From assembly GCF_024345185.1 (NCBI RefSeq), contig NZ_BROB01000006.1, forward strand, positions 1-64,000: DNA of 64,000 nt, given 5' to 3'. This document shows, piece by piece, positions 17,834 to 33,952 of this stretch; position 1 is the stretch's first letter, and every line of letters starts with the position of its first letter. This stretch comes from Levilactobacillus humaensis (GTDB lineage Bacteria > Bacillota > Bacilli > Lactobacillales > Lactobacillaceae). The position numbers were made by a program, and so were the translations under genes. The notes below the pieces were generated by a model. The model was not told the DNA's origin. It did not search any database and worked only from the letters and a program-made list of their open reading frames with translations.

Positions 17834-17862
17834 TTGCTTTTTAGGATTGGCGGTTGTATGAT
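17834..17862 (+). promoter_or_regulatory. Promoter of the MerR-like gene
   Basis: TTGCTT (17834-17839), 17-base spacer, TATGAT (17857-17862). It overlaps a possible upstream TTG codon, which argues for the downstream start at 17896. Confidence 0.65.
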
Positions 17863-17895
17863 ACTCTCATCAACCACGAGGAAAGCGGGGGAAAG

Positions 17896-18138
17896 ATGAT
17901 GGAGATGAACTTAACTGAACTGGCTCAGACCACGAATGTGGACGCCAGTCGAATTCAAGAATACGTTGCCATGGGCCTCTTAGGCGCTGACCATTCCGCA
18001 ACGGCATTCGATGATTCGGACATGTATTGGATCGACATGATTCAATGTTTTCAGGATAACGGGACGTCTTTAGAAGACCTATCCGGATTAATGCCACGGT
18101 GTCGCAAGGCACAGACGCGGTTAACGCAAGTGAACTAA
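17896..18138 (+). CDS. MerR-like HTH-only protein, 80 aa
   Basis: The sequence MNLTELAQTTNVDASRIQEY fits the MerR helix-turn-helix and the start of its wing, and WIDMIQCFQDNGTSLEDL fits the second helical pair. After that the protein ends, so the long dimerisation helix and effector domain of normal MerR regulators are absent. The conserved RyYE motif is also altered (RIQEYVAMGLL). It may be a minimal regulator or an antagonist forming mixed dimers; this is speculation. The ATG is close behind GGGGGAAAG. Confidence 0.65.
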   Translation: MMEMNLTELAQTTNVDASRIQEYVAMGLLGADHSATAFDDSDMYWIDMIQCFQDNGTSLEDLSGLMPRCRKAQTRLTQVN

Positions 18139-18173: not shown

Positions 18174-18205
18174 AAATTGCAGCCCTCGTGGACTGCAATT
18201 TTTTT
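18174..18205 (+). terminator. Terminator of the MerR-like gene
   Basis: AAATTGCAG pairs with CTGCAATTT and is followed by a run of T. Confidence 0.9.
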
Positions 18206-18240
18206 GTGGGTTGGAAACGGTGGTGTCGTAGGTCAGAAGG

Positions 18241-18432
18241 CCGCCTGCGGCTGCCAGAGATTCCGCCTGCTGTGGGGACGCTTCAGCCTGAGGCCCGGGC
18301 TTCTCGCTCGCTTTGAAGCCCCGCCAGAGGCGCGGGTCTTCAAAGTCGCCCGTGGTGTAGGGCCGAGAAACTCGCTCGGTCCAACACCACCTCCACGGCT
18401 GGCTCCATCTCTGGCCTCCTCCGGCTAGGTGG
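18241..18432 (+). repeat. Structured intergenic repeat, copy A
   Basis: About 190 bases closely similar to 26603-26787. Helices: CCGCC (18241) with GGTGG (18428); GCCAGAGAT (18253) with ATCTCTGGC (18407); CTTTGAAG (18311) with CTTCAAAG (18338); CCCGC (18320) with GCGGG (18332); GTGGTGT (18352) with ACACCAC (18384). Above the last lies an eight-pair helix, 18360-18367 with 18375-18382, closing a seven-base loop. Differences from copy B keep these pairs. It lies in a convergent gap after a terminator, with no clear promoter. Bases 18433-18623 beyond it hold nothing I recognise. The strand of action is unproven. Confidence 0.8.
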
Positions 18433-18623
18433 TGACATGGCAACACCGGTGGCAGTCAGTAATTGCTAATGACGAGTTATTGGCAGGATTTCAGCATTTT
18501 GAGTTCTCCGGGTTAGCTAAGGTGTTCCGGCATGAGTGCTTCTGGGGGAGGGCAGTGGTCGTGCATGCCTTGTACATAATTATTCTGTTGGGGGATCTTG
18601 TTTTGAACGCCAATTTAGGCCAT

Positions 18624-18669: not shown

Positions 18670-19395
18670 CTAGTTAGCCTTAACTTGCTTGATCAGCTGC
18701 TTCATTGCTTGTGCTTGGTATTCAGCTGCGGCGGCTTGGGTAACCTTCTTCTGTTCTGCTGTGGACATCGTTGGGTTCTTGGTCATAGCGGCCATCACCT
18801 TAGTCTTCACATAGTTGGTTGCTGCGGTCTTTTGCTTGGCTTGGAAACTCTTGGAACTAGTCATCTTCTGAAGTTGCTTAGCCTGAGTGGCACTGAGGAC
18901 CGTCCAGGACTTGTTCAGGTAGATCGTGTTCGTTTCCTTCACGTACTTGTGACCATTACCGGTCAGACCGAACCAGAAGCGGCTAGAACCGTTCTTGAAT
19001 TCTCGGTAGACCTTCTTCGTCACGATCCGGTTGGCCCCGGAAGTCCGCTTGACGATGTTGGTCGTCGTCACTTTAGCGGCGGTGTGAGTGGCCTTCTTGG
19101 CGTTAGCGCTGGTCTTGTAAACGTAGACCCGGTGCTTGTCAGCCGTTCCGACAGATTGGTAAATCATCATGGGCATCTGCTTAGAAGGCGAGGCCGAGTA
19201 AATCTTTTGCGTCCGTGTTGTCGACTCGTTATGCAGGCCGAAGTGGTAATGATCATTGCGAATCATGAAGAAGATACTCGTCAGTAACGATAAGATGGCG
19301 AGGCCAGTTAAGATGTTGCTGACGGTTCGGTTGTCAATATAGATAAAGAAGATAAACGCGAGAACCGCGGATAATGCGAGCGTTACTAAAATCAT
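18670..19395 (-). CDS. DUF4811 protein, partner of the MFS transporter
   Basis: 241 residues. Two membrane helices at the start (about 1-20 and 28-46) are followed by a long extracytoplasmic or cytoplasmic domain. That domain has an Ala/Lys/Gln-rich helical C-terminus (TAEQKKVTQAAAAEYQAQAMKQLIKQ). The family is known mainly from lactobacilli, beside DHA2 transporters. Its start overlaps the MFS stop by one base (TAATG), with AGGAGG inside the MFS gene, so the two are translationally coupled. It likely assists the transporter, but the role is not established. Confidence 0.85.
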   Translation of the reverse strand: MILVTLALSAVLAFIFFIYIDNRTVSNILTGLAILSLLTSIFFMIRNDHYHFGLHNESTTRTQKIYSASPSKQMPMMIYQSVGTADKHRVYVYKTSANAKKATHTAAKVTTTNIVKRTSGANRIVTKKVYREFKNGSSRFWFGLTGNGHKYVKETNTIYLNKSWTVLSATQAKQLQKMTSSKSFQAKQKTAATNYVKTKVMAAMTKNPTMSTAEQKKVTQAAAAEYQAQAMKQLIKQVKAN

Positions 19396-25800: not shown

Positions 25801-26469
25801 ATGATGCTATTTGATCGAGACCGGGATCGGCCGTGGAAGTTCACACTTGCCACCGTCCTCTTCCTGGTCGTTGCGTTTTTCGTAAAGGCACAGAATGCCT
25901 ATGTGAGCTTCTTGGATTCATCGATTGTCGATGTTATCCAGAAGAATCAACCAGGTTGGAAAACGCTATTTTATCGGGGAGTGACCAGCCTAGCTGAACC
26001 CAAGTTAGCTATTATTTGGGTCTTAGTGCTGGCGTTCTTCCTTTGGGGCTTTAAATTTAAGATTCCAGCACTCTGGTGCTTGGCAACCTTGGCTAGTGGG
26101 GATGTTATCGCGTCACTTGTCAAAAAGATTGTGGCACGACCAAGACCCGCTGCACATTTGGCCATTGATGATGGCTTTAGTTTTCCTAGTGGACACGTGT
26201 TTGGCACATTCCTAGTCATCGCAATGATTTGGGTGATTCTAATTCCCATGATTGGCAGAGCCTGGAAGGCTTGGTTGCTCCGAATCGTCTTGATTCTTTG
26301 GATGGCTGTCGTGATGATCTCACGGGTCTATCTCAATGCCCATTACCCAACGGATACGATTGGGGCGGTTCTGTTGGCTTACCTGTGGTTACAGGTGGCT
26401 GAGGGACTCTACATTCGGTTTGCACCGATGATGCAGGGATGGCCGTTACTGAAGCGTTCCGAGATCTAA
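25801..26469 (+). CDS. PAP2-family phosphatase
   Basis: 222 residues, about five or six membrane segments. The three acid-phosphatase motifs are in order: KKIVARPRP (K-x6-RP), FPSGH, and SRVYLNAHYPTDT (SRxxxxxHxxxD). This fits lipid phosphatases such as undecaprenyl-diphosphate or phosphatidylglycerol-phosphate phosphatases. The exact substrate is open. A TATACT lies about 55 bases upstream; AAAGGA precedes the ATG. Confidence 0.9.
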   Translation: MMLFDRDRDRPWKFTLATVLFLVVAFFVKAQNAYVSFLDSSIVDVIQKNQPGWKTLFYRGVTSLAEPKLAIIWVLVLAFFLWGFKFKIPALWCLATLASGDVIASLVKKIVARPRPAAHLAIDDGFSFPSGHVFGTFLVIAMIWVILIPMIGRAWKAWLLRIVLILWMAVVMISRVYLNAHYPTDTIGAVLLAYLWLQVAEGLYIRFAPMMQGWPLLKRSEI

Positions 26470-26518: not shown

Positions 26519-26569
26519 AGAGCACATCAACAACTAACTGTTTTGGTTGTTGGTGTGCTCTTTAATTTT
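26519..26569 (+). terminator. Terminator of the PAP2 gene
   Basis: AGAGCACA-TCAACAAC pairs with GTTGTTGG-TGTGCTCT, followed by TTAATTTT. Confidence 0.9.
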
Positions 26570-26602
26570 GTTTGAACTTGTCATGAGGGTAGTGCTGGAT
26601 AG

Positions 26603-26787
26603 CCACCTGCGGCTGCCAGGGATTCCGCCTGCTGTGGGGACGCTTCAGCCCGGTGGGCTTCTCGCTCGATTTGAAGCCACGAAGATCACGTGTCTTCAAA
26701 GTCGCCCGTGCTGTAAACTAGCCTAAAACGCTAGTTAACACCACCTCCACGGCCGGCTCCATCCCTGGCCTCCTCCGGCTATGGTGG
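26603..26787 (+). repeat. Structured intergenic repeat, copy B
   Basis: Second copy of the element at 18241-18432, in the same orientation. The same helices form with changed bases: CCACC (26603) with GGTGG (26783); GCCAGGGAT (26615) with ATCCCTGGC (26761); TTTGAAG (26670) with CTTCAAA (26694). CACG (26678) pairs with CGTG (26689). AACTAGC (26716) pairs with GCTAGTT (26730) around a seven-base loop, above an A-A mismatch shared with copy A. It again follows a terminator in a convergent gap. Confidence 0.8.
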
Positions 26788-26827
26788 TTCACTGCAATTA
26801 AAGAGCATGAGTCATACAGACTTATAT

Positions 26828-26875
26828 AAAATGGTCAACATCATCTGGTACACGCCAGGTGGTGTTGACCATTTT
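26828..26875. terminator. 21-bp bidirectional terminator hairpin
   Basis: The arms 26828-26848 and 26855-26875 pair over 21 positions with only two G-U pairs and a six-base loop. The stem begins with AAAA and ends with TTTT, so it can terminate on both strands. Confidence 0.8.
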
Positions 26876-26944
26876 GGGTTATCTCTGGTTCAGTTACGTA
26901 TTGGTATTTGGCAAGTTGACTAGGAACGACAGTCGAAGCCGTGA

Positions 26945-27095
26945 GGCTGGTAGATATGGGCTCAGGCGCGTCGTTCACCTTAGTCAGTGAGTGTTGTTCT
27001 CACTGGCTTAGGTGAAAGCCAAGCTTGTAGACTCGTGTCGTGTTCTTCGAGGCTTCAAGTTGTGCTCGCACCGTTCCAGCCCATATCTACCAGCC
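26945..27095. repeat. Large inverted-repeat element
   Basis: An 18-base perfect inverted repeat (26945-26962 and 27078-27095, arm GGCTGGTAGATATGGGCT) encloses 115 bases. Inside lies a second stem: TTCACCTTAG..CAGTGAG (26974-26991) with CTCACTG..TTAGGTGAA (26999-27016). It lies 35 bases beyond the esterase stop. It could be a folded 3' UTR, a small RNA or a MITE-like remnant. No target-site duplication is evident. Confidence 0.6.
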
Positions 27096-27129
27096 GGTAA
27101 GGCGGCCACTGTCGCAGCAACAGACATCG

Positions 27130-27924
27130 TTAGTCGAGTTCATTCAGCCATTCTTGAGCCAGATCCATCCAGTGGGCCACGTGAGGCAAGGCCGTTCCCG
27201 GCTTCCATGCCGTCACTGGATTGGCCAGTGCGAGGCCGTGTGGGCCGTGGTGGAAAAGATGGAGCTCGGTGTCCACACCTTGGGCAATGGAGGCCTGTGC
27301 GTAGGCTAGGGCGTTCTGAACGGGCACTAAGGGGTCAGCCGCAGTGGCCCAGACAAAGGTCGGCGCATTCTGTGCGGTGACTTGGTGGTCAGCCGCAATC
27401 TTTTCCGGGTCGTCGGTCCAAGCATCTAACATGGCGGGATCGGTTGGAAAGCCAGCCTTAGGCGTGATAACTGGGTAGCCTAAGATGACTGCCTGAGGCT
27501 TTAAGGCCGCGGTTGAAACGCCGACCCGTTTTGCAAAGTCGTCACTGTGCCAGAGATCATTGTAGAGGGCGACAATGTGGCCCCCAACCGAGAAGCCAGC
27601 AATCGCGATGCGGTTGGTGTCGATCTGCCAGTCCGTCGCGTATTCCTTTAAGCTAGCCACCGTCTGACCCAATTCGATCACGGGGGCTGGCAAGAGAGGG
27701 TGTTTTTCGGCGACGAAACTATAGCGGAGGAAGAAGGTCTGATAGCCGCGTGCCGACCAGGCCAATGCTAAGTCTTCGGCCTGTTGTTCGGGGATATGGG
27801 TGTAGGACCCACCGGGAACGATAATCATGGCCGGATAATGTTGGGGTGTCCCCGCGTCCTGGCGTAAATAACCCTGTAGGTAGGCGTTGGCGTCAGATGA
27901 CAGGGCTTGTTTGATAATTTTCAT
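27130..27924 (-). CDS. Alpha/beta-hydrolase (acetylxylan-esterase-like)
   Basis: 264 residues. The catalytic triad is visible: the nucleophile Ser in GFSVGG (about residue 115), Asp in ATAADPLVPV, and His in HHGPHGLA. The oxyanion HGGS-type motif is replaced by PGGSYTHIP, as in the BD-FAE/Axe2-like esterase group. No signal peptide, so it should act in the cytoplasm on small esters. AGGAGG precedes the ATG. It diverges from a GNAT gene across a 9-bp-arm palindrome. Confidence 0.88.
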   Translation of the reverse strand: MKIIKQALSSDANAYLQGYLRQDAGTPQHYPAMIIVPGGSYTHIPEQQAEDLALAWSARGYQTFFLRYSFVAEKHPLLPAPVIELGQTVASLKEYATDWQIDTNRIAIAGFSVGGHIVALYNDLWHSDDFAKRVGVSTAALKPQAVILGYPVITPKAGFPTDPAMLDAWTDDPEKIAADHQVTAQNAPTFVWATAADPLVPVQNALAYAQASIAQGVDTELHLFHHGPHGLALANPVTAWKPGTALPHVAHWMDLAQEWLNELD

Positions 27925-33068: not shown

Positions 33069-33110
33069 ATAATAGTTGTTTCGAACGAGATAGTTTGTTT
33101 GAAAGCACAT

Positions 33111-33183
33111 GGAGGATTAGCTCAGTTGGGAGAGCGTCTGCCTTACAAGCAGAGGGTCACAGGTTCGAGCCCTGTATCCTCCA
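33111..33183 (+). tRNA. tRNA-Val (UAC)
   Basis: 73-base cloverleaf with acceptor GGAGGAT/ATCCTCC, discriminator A and anticodon TAC in CTGCCTTACAAGCAG. CCA is not encoded. First of eight tRNAs in one transcript. Confidence 0.96.
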
Positions 33184-33220
33184 TTGGGAATAAAATCCCT
33201 GGCGTTAGTTCGCCAACGTT

Positions 33221-33302
33221 GCAGGTGTGGCGGAACTGGCAGACGCGCTAGATTTAGGTTCTAGTGTCTTATGACGTGGGGGTTCGAGTCCCTTCACCTG
33301 CA
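33221..33302 (+). tRNA. tRNA-Leu (UAG)
   Basis: 82-base class II tRNA with acceptor GCAGGTG/CACCTGC, long variable arm and anticodon TAG in CTAGATTTAGGTTCTAG. Confidence 0.96.
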
Positions 33303-33339
33303 TAATTAAATATTGCAAAATATTTGTTTAAAATATTTT

Positions 33340-33412
33340 GCCGACTTAGCTCAGTTGGCAGAGCATCTCACTAGTAATGAGGAGGTCGGAGGTTCGAATC
33401 CTCTAGTCGGCA
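33340..33412 (+). tRNA. tRNA-Thr (AGU)
   Basis: 73-base cloverleaf with acceptor GCCGACT/AGTCGGC. The anticodon stem is TCTCA/TGAGG and the loop CTAGTAA, so the anticodon is AGT with A at position 34. The usual bacterial choices are GGT, TGT or CGT. Confidence 0.93.
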
Positions 33413-33439
33413 TGGTTCCATTAATTTTATAGCCAATTT

Positions 33440-33511
33440 GCGGAAGTAGTTCAGTGGTAGAACATCACCTTGCCATGGTGGGGGTCGCGGGTTCGAATCC
33501 CGTCTTCCGCT
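33440..33511 (+). tRNA. tRNA-Gly (GCC)
   Basis: 72-base cloverleaf with acceptor GCGGAAG/CTTCCGC, discriminator T and anticodon GCC in TCACCTTGCCATGGTG. Confidence 0.96.
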
Positions 33512-33523
33512 TTTTAACCCTTT

Positions 33524-33609
33524 GCCGGGGTGGCGGAATTGGCAGACGCACAGGACTTAAAATCCTGCGGTCAGTGATGACCATACCGGTTCGATCCCGG
33601 TCCTCGGCA
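33524..33609 (+). tRNA. tRNA-Leu (UAA)
   Basis: 86-base class II tRNA with acceptor GCCGGGG/CCTCGGC (one G-U pair) and anticodon TAA in GGACTTAAAATCC. Confidence 0.96.
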
Positions 33610-33629
33610 TTTAACTTAATAATAATTAT

Positions 33630-33703
33630 GCACCCATAGCGCAATTGGATAGAGTGTCTGACTACGAATCAGAAGGTTGTAGGTTCGACTCCTACTGGGT
33701 GCA
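33630..33703 (+). tRNA. tRNA-Arg (ACG)
   Basis: 74-base cloverleaf with acceptor GCACCCA/TGGGTGC and anticodon ACG in CTGACTACGAATCAG. This is the standard TadA substrate, so inosine at 34 is expected. Confidence 0.96.
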
Positions 33704-33734
33704 TTTTTGTTGCTTATGTCTCATAAGCAATTTT

Positions 33735-33808
33735 CGGGAAGTAGCTCAGCTTGGTAGAGCACCTGGTTTGGGACCAGGGGGTCGCAGGTTCGAATCCTGT
33801 CTTCCCGA
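33735..33808 (+). tRNA. tRNA-Pro (UGG)
   Basis: 74-base cloverleaf with acceptor CGGGAAG/CTTCCCG and anticodon TGG in CTGGTTTGGGACCAG. Nearly identical outside the anticodon arm and T arm to the next tRNA. Confidence 0.96.
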
Positions 33809-33845
33809 TTTTTACTAGCTTAATATTTCGCTGGTGAGCTTTCTT

Positions 33846-33919
33846 CGGGAAGTAGCTCAGCTTGGTAGAGCACCACGTTCGGGACGTGGGGGTCGCAAGT
33901 TCAAATCTTGTCTTCCCGA
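33846..33919 (+). tRNA. tRNA-Pro (CGG)
   Basis: 74-base tandem relative of the preceding tRNA-Pro with anticodon CGG in CACGTTCGGGACGTG. The T arm differs by paired changes (GCAAG/CTTGT instead of GCAGG/CCTGT), so the stem is kept. The T loop reads TTCAAAT instead of TTCGAAT. Confidence 0.94.
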
Positions 33920-33952
33920 TTTTTTTATCTCTCGAATACATATTATGATAAT

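Follow-up and report, generated by a model that had tools for sequence, protein, structure and literature searches.

The DNA analysed here, hereafter the window, is a 64,000-nt stretch of the Levilactobacillus humaensis genome (contig NZ_BROB01000006.1, positions 1 to 64,000) in which two gaps between convergent genes carry copies of a folded element. The gap between a MerR-like gene and a DUF4811 gene holds copy A, and the gap between a PAP2 superfamily gene and an alpha/beta hydrolase gene holds copy B together with a third, diverged copy, which faces copy B across ~160 nt (Table 1). The window also carries eight clustered tRNA genes on the plus strand (33110-33920).

Table 1. Element copies, their paired parts and their neighbours in the window (R1 and R2, covariance models; A2, alignment).
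Feature	Position	Strand	Evidence
Element copy A, family I	18240..18427	+	R1 203.8 bits; fold z -4.52 on 18200-18460
Element copy B, family I	26602..26781	+	R1 203.1 bits; fold z -3.96 on 26575-26810
Third copy, diverged, family III	26944..27116 (R2: 26936-27105)	-	R1 38.9 bits; R2 133.6 bits; clustering
Closing stem of copy A, 5' arm, GCCAGAGAT	18253..18261	+	sequence; 6/7 pairs changed on both sides (helix 2, alignment A2)
Closing stem of copy A, 3' arm, ATCTCTGGC	18407..18415	+	sequence; covariation in alignment A2
Third hairpin of copy A, GTGGTGT...ACACCAC	18352..18390	+	sequence; 11/13 pairs changed on both sides (helix 7, alignment A2)
Terminator-like hairpin and T tract, between MerR-like gene and copy A	18174..18205	+	sequence; terminator scan
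Terminator-like hairpin and T-rich tract, between PAP2 gene and copy B	26520..26569	+	sequence; terminator scan
Terminator-like hairpin with A and T tracts, between copy B and third copy	26828..26875	.	sequence; terminator scan
Gene upstream of copy A, MerR_1 (PF13411)	17854..18138	+	
Convergent gene adjoining copy A, DUF4811 (PF16069)	18670..19395	-	
Gene upstream of copy B, PAP2 superfamily (PF01569)	25801..26469	+	
Convergent gene adjoining third copy, alpha/beta hydrolase (PF20434 best)	27130..27924	-	

The original prediction had described copies A and B as sharing helices in which the differences between the copies compensate each other, and rereading both stretches bore out the sequences, the helices and the compensating differences. 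The closing stem reads GCCAGAGAT/ATCTCTGGC in copy A and GCCAGGGAT/ATCCCTGGC in copy B, and CCCGC/GCGGG in copy A is CACG/CGTG in copy B. The third hairpin is likewise as it had been claimed, with a stem of 8 bp in copy A and 7 bp in copy B built from different pairs, a seven-base loop and an A-A mismatch common to both. Both copies beat 200 of 200 dinucleotide shuffles on folding, and within the window their 26-base core is confined to A and B (chance expectation 0.00). The lengths of family I copies differ by steps that are not multiples of three, so a reading frame is unnecessary as an explanation of the element.

The consensus fold comprises a closing stem, a second stem and a junction with two or three hairpins. 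In alignment A2, 97.4% of the cells are paired and 122 are doubly changed against 31.4 after shuffling; the covariation score of 0.322 (0.142 shuffled) was reached by none of 500 shuffles, and slid controls stayed at or below 0.082. The number of further pair types in A2 did not beat the shuffles (48 versus 45.9 shuffled; 121 of 500 shuffles). Alignment A4 gave 95.3% paired cells, 161 doubly changed cells against 45.6, and a score of 0.642 against 0.185, with slid controls at or below 0.115. Kinship alone can push sequences above shuffles, and the structure was derived from these same alignments; the comparison of copies at the same site in two species, described below, therefore weighs more. 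In III-type copies the letters of the outer stem vary widely, and the core retains letters such as CTGGAACG, GAAGCC, GGTCT and CTGAG; conservation of hairpin and loop letters extends over 18 sequences from the own genus and two other genera. On the given strand, G-U cells stand to A-C cells as 144:24 in family I, 35:13 in III, 23:8 in IIb and 28:40 in IIa, the cells not being independent. Clusters of double changes within one helix were also observed. The families have in common short, imperfect ends, GCC..GG, and CCTCCGGCTA is found at the ends as well.

The element is not a two-copy family, as it had been taken to be, since beyond the third copy in the window it occupies at least 127 distinct places in the genome. 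The R1 covariance model, built from 27 copies, matched 135 places in this genome (G000), of which 128 were carried on and gave 127 distinct places after one antisense echo was dropped; the seven left out were six antisense echoes and one weak place (C2:119928-120099, 32.6 bits). As 150 of 696 candidates were scored, this count is a lower bound, and so are the copy numbers per genome from the R1 and R2 searches. Even so, it falls among the tens to hundreds of intergenic folded copies by which BOX-like repeats are recognised. From 457 kb of this genome, 92 distinct copies were sorted into families I (33, including copies A and B), IIa (22), III (20, including the third window copy), IIb (14), IV (2) and V (1).

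R1 matches were found in 34 of 35 Levilactobacillus genomes and in 3 of 148 genomes of the order, the own genome included. Blastn with copy A matched 29 of 58 relatives, each of the own genus, and an exact 20-base core pattern was present in at least 106 stretches of named genomes, the matches listed being Levilactobacillus throughout. The search of Lactobacillaceae with a covariance model, proposed along with the original prediction, did yield further homologues: R2, built from 18 III-type sequences with two other genera among them, matched 57 of 201 Lactobacillaceae genomes, representing 12 of 40 genera. Across the order R2 matched 25 of 395 genomes, with a marginal match in another family (G099, E 9.9e-4). 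That no named RNA family has this arrangement also held in the stretches searched. Rfam 15 returned eight tRNAs and nothing else at gathering score for the whole window, no match at E<=1 for the region of copy A, and five hits, none overlapping an element, for eight loci with diverged or foreign-genus copies and three stretches of this genome. In another Lactobacillaceae genus, an element pair has a T-box leader close by (L257:2103-2310, minus strand). A phage or plasmid origin was rejected, as no match to phage or plasmid was found and the exact core pattern was absent from viral contigs. A literature search, mostly without full text, brought up nothing that we recognised as this element.

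None of the 91 copies placed in the 457 kb overlapped a called gene by more than 60 nt (our own gene caller). Elements occupied 18 of 53 convergent, 34 of 177 tandem and 9 of 55 divergent gaps, so that convergent gaps were occupied more often than the others (18/53 versus 43/232, p 0.025). The families differ in this respect: counted as convergent/tandem/divergent, family I gave 20/11/1, IIa and IIb together 2/20/14 and III 6/14/0, with an association between gap type and family I versus II at p 6.6e-7. A tie of each family to one gene end was rejected; families I and III favour gene 3' ends, and the sides are mixed in tandem gaps. Altogether 58 copies adjoin a gene 3' end, often within 100 nt. 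Our own scan placed a terminator-like hairpin before the element in 28 of these, after it in 13 and on both sides in 2, and found none in 15. Because these hairpins are usually found separately, the copies are not themselves terminators. Routine transcription is doubtful for the 28 copies behind a terminator and the 2 with one on both sides, and many copies would be reached only by read-through.

The orientation of neighbouring copies is strikingly regular. Over all sets, 87 of 93 neighbouring pairs face inward (+-) and none stands back to back (-+), which gives the inverted doublets characteristic of REP/REPIN-RAYT systems. Inward-facing pairs made up 29 of 30 adjacent pairs in this genome (the remaining one being --) and 23 of 23 in L. 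paucivorans (G032), where many sites are common to both genomes and the two counts are thus not independent. For other named species the figure was 23 of 24 and for further genomes 6 of 10, and loci from outside the genus that had been picked for holding two hits gave 6 of 6. Inspection by eye also revealed ++ neighbours in other genera (G211:C11, G248:C5) and -- neighbours in G008:C1. Of the 32 single copies, 26 have their nearer gene on the 5' side. The rule left standing is that 5' ends never face each other within a pair and usually face the nearer gene. Facing pairs within family I are spaced at 300-335 nt (4 of 4) and mixed-family pairs mostly at 32-251 nt, a difference which may reflect the instability of long palindromes lying close together. 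In the DNA searched, the spacers matched orthologous places only, and a pair with its spacer was for that reason rejected as a single mobile unit.

We then compared copies at the same site in this genome and in L. paucivorans. The 62 occupied gaps included 32 that we could locate in the L. paucivorans DNA searched; these contain 50 copies, 39 of which align over more than 93% of their length. In 33 of the 39 the identity of the copy exceeded that of the remaining gap sequence (p 1.4e-5, two-copy gaps being counted twice). Over all 39, paired positions diverged by 8.1%, unpaired positions by 15.1% and the remaining gap sequence by 17.2%; the 31 copies at 85% identity or more gave 3.9%, 11.1% and 17.0%, respectively. 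In those 31, both partners had changed in 24 pairs and pairing was kept in 22, while slid controls (partners shifted by 1 to 4) gave 6-17 doubly changed pairs with 0-5 kept. These controls were used in place of the expectation under independence (2.8 doubly changed pairs), which is too low because changes cluster. One-sided changes break 143 of 2313 pairs across the 39 copies. The claim that selection acts on how the element folds, and not on its letters, is thus supported, both by covariation above the shuffled and slid controls and by compensation at same-site copies of two species.

Three same-site copies (C20:6530, C20:7874 and C19:24401) hold 17, 13 and 9 doubly changed kept pairs, and these look like cores exchanged with another copy rather than compensation point by point; such exchange may be the source of part of the compensation. 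Two III copies close to each other (L189:6530-6667 and L189:7874-8021) sit at the same site in this genome and in L. paucivorans (L300) with much the same outer stem, and their cores differ as if swapped between copies. In another case (L188:13969-14664 versus L116:5842-6541), the two facing family I copies look closer to each other's L. paucivorans counterpart, and 48 nt of the spacer match the other way round; the gap may have been inverted, or the match may simply be a palindromic terminator. A large internal deletion was seen in L177:7447-7628 (G000 C2:27447), of which L. paucivorans has an intact counterpart (L118:3194-3378).

Copies are lost by decay and deletion. The site of copy A is intact in this genome and in L. 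paucivorans, decayed in G031 and reduced to an end with the CGGCT repeat in G008; the site of copy B is intact in this genome and broken in L. paucivorans, and both G008 and G031 lack the copy. Another deletion bounded by end repeats was found at C11:13846 in L. paucivorans. The sites examined for a clean empty site showed remnants or deletions, two of which lie between AGCCG/CGGCT repeats close to the element's ends, and the clear absences inspected among the 50 copies in 32 gaps compared with L. paucivorans likewise read as deletions and not as empty sites. In five orthologous gaps of G031, none of eight copies is intact and the remaining gap sequence is 78.7-93.5% identical; a reading of these as empty sites was rejected, as the alignments show decay. 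Genome-wide, G031 has two R1 places and no R2 place, and G021 has neither, although its copies may be too diverged for R1 and R2. The family is thus lost, or nearly so, from two species of the genus. Low counts of R1 and R2 places were also found in G015 (7 and 12), G034 (23 and 38) and G012 (25 and 39). Excision scars were rejected, the joined-end motif being uncommon (four in this genome, two in L. paucivorans, one in G031 and one in named loci) and about as frequent as in the largest controls; hence the two precise deletions look like slippage. No clear direct repeat indicative of a target duplication was seen, the best z being 2.9 over many combinations with the true ends uncertain.

A search for a trans-acting partner was made across the 35 genomes of the genus. 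A Y1 transposase (PF01797) is found in 23 of them; it is absent from the element-rich G032, G002, G030, G011, G016 and G029 and present in G031 and G021, so that a RAYT or IS200-type partner was rejected because the distribution of the transposase does not track element abundance. The sole Y1 transposase match of the window's genome (G000:C51:1747-2103) has an in-frame TGA. Reverse transcriptase (PF00078) is found in 10 of 35 genomes, with none in this genome or L. paucivorans at the search threshold, and it does not track abundance either, which led us to reject a reverse transcriptase partner or a group II intron derivative. The presence or absence of SbcD was also rejected as an explanation of abundance or loss, as SbcD is found in 35 of 35 genomes.

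The element is a high-copy dispersed structured non-coding repeat of Lactobacillaceae, BOX/REP-like in character, and the evidence supports that the RNA-like fold of its resident copies is kept by selection. As a whole explanation we favour, at a little short of an even chance, a selected dispersed folded element that works as an RNA-level module at transcript ends with a dedicated trans-acting factor. The folded strand, most likely RNA, would be recognised by that factor. Since the 5' end usually lies toward the nearer gene, a polymerase leaving this gene into the gap would produce the folded strand, and the element may serve as a transcript-end module for stability, processing or limiting read-through. 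The action as RNA at gap edges through a dedicated factor is the part that we infer. Past spread was probably by transposition in trans, and losing the factor would free the copies to decay. A bolder form, namely a new class of structured RNA acting as genome-wide punctuation, with at least 100 inward-facing copies at gap edges and one dedicated factor whose loss leads to decay, we consider rather unlikely.

The main rival is selfish persistence with gene conversion. On this view the repeat is a non-autonomous mobile element (MITE, BOX or REP type) that is selfish throughout: its fold would serve mobilisation by an enzyme encoded elsewhere, transposition would spread the copies and gene conversion would keep them alike, with no gain to the host. 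We regard it as distinctly possible, the more so as copy number is high, families exist within genomes, the short ends (GCC..GG and CCTCCGGCTA) are conserved, sites are present or absent between species, convergent gaps are over-occupied and cores are exchanged between copies. However, same-site copies are constrained, spacers match orthologous places only in the DNA searched, the clear absences inspected relative to L. paucivorans read as deletions and not as empty sites, no target duplication stood out, and abundance follows neither the Y1 transposase nor reverse transcriptase. It is conceivable that the extruded or single-stranded form acts on DNA, buffering supercoils or binding a protein or gyrase as proposed for some REP/BIME, given the preference of family I for convergent gaps (20 of 32), the long stems on both strands and the missing G-U excess in IIa. 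Yet I, III and IIb do show an excess of G-U over A-C, the 18 sequences from three genera keep their hairpin and loop letters, and many copies lie in divergent or tandem gaps, and this action on DNA is improbable in our estimation.

Purely mutational covariation seems less probable again: template switching in imperfect palindromes could rewrite both arms without any selection, in keeping with the long stems and with double changes clustered in one helix, but paired positions change more slowly than unpaired ones and these more slowly than the rest of the gap, the copies of G031 lose their stems, and loops are conserved across genera, which together make it very unlikely. That the elements are no more than terminators or 3' UTR hairpins belonging to single genes is scarcely credible, for all that 58 of them adjoin a gene 3' end, often at less than 100 nt, since terminator-like hairpins are usually separate, before or after the element, and the fold turns up again beside unrelated genes and in divergent gaps. 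If the selected module read by a dedicated factor is right, food and fermentation bacteria hold a large uncatalogued set of folded elements under selection, and the two related species in which the family is lost or nearly lost are a natural experiment for finding the factor that reads them. Even if the element is selfish, it is a well-sampled case for asking why resident sites keep a fold and why back-to-back neighbours never occur.

Among known systems, group IIC introns insert behind intrinsic terminators in a fixed orientation. The element resembles them in that 28 of the 58 copies beside gene 3' ends lie behind a terminator, and differs in that no intron fold was identified in it and no reverse transcriptase was found in the genome at the search threshold. 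The BOX, RUP and SPRITE repeats of Streptococcus pneumoniae are dispersed, intergenic and folded, usually shorter than ~200 bp, over-represented between convergent genes, slow in turnover and thought to be non-autonomous; BOX and RUP have ~100 copies each with target duplications reported, and BOX is modular (PMC3049150). Our element is alike in being dispersed, intergenic and folded, in its length below ~200 bp, its ~100 copies, its excess in convergent gaps, its slow turnover and its presumed non-autonomy, and is set apart, by description, by a three-hairpin core, strong covariation, several families per genome, inward-facing neighbours and presence in 12 sampled genera. REP/REPIN sequences with RAYT are dispersed palindromic repeats with inverted doublets and families within a genome (PMC3116915), features that the element has as well; here, however, the unit is ~150-190 nt with a junction, the Y1 transposase is untied to abundance and spacers give no sign of moving as a unit. 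The MRSC-65-2 motif is presented as having dozens of copies per genome and strong covariation, possibly as a DNA-level selfish element, with a single long stem, a spread over diverse phyla and the repeat UYCCGG (PMC11109978). This repeat resembles the CCGG near the ends of our element, which differs, going by that description, in its branched core and, over the genomes of the order searched, its near confinement to Lactobacillaceae. The Lacto-int motif is a candidate structured RNA of Lactobacillales listed with phages (PMC2864571), and is set apart by that description from an element with no phage, plasmid or viral-contig match. In essence, what distinguishes the element from BOX and REP is a branched, strongly covarying core, constraint at the level of the site, neighbours that face inward and its occurrence in at least 12 genera.
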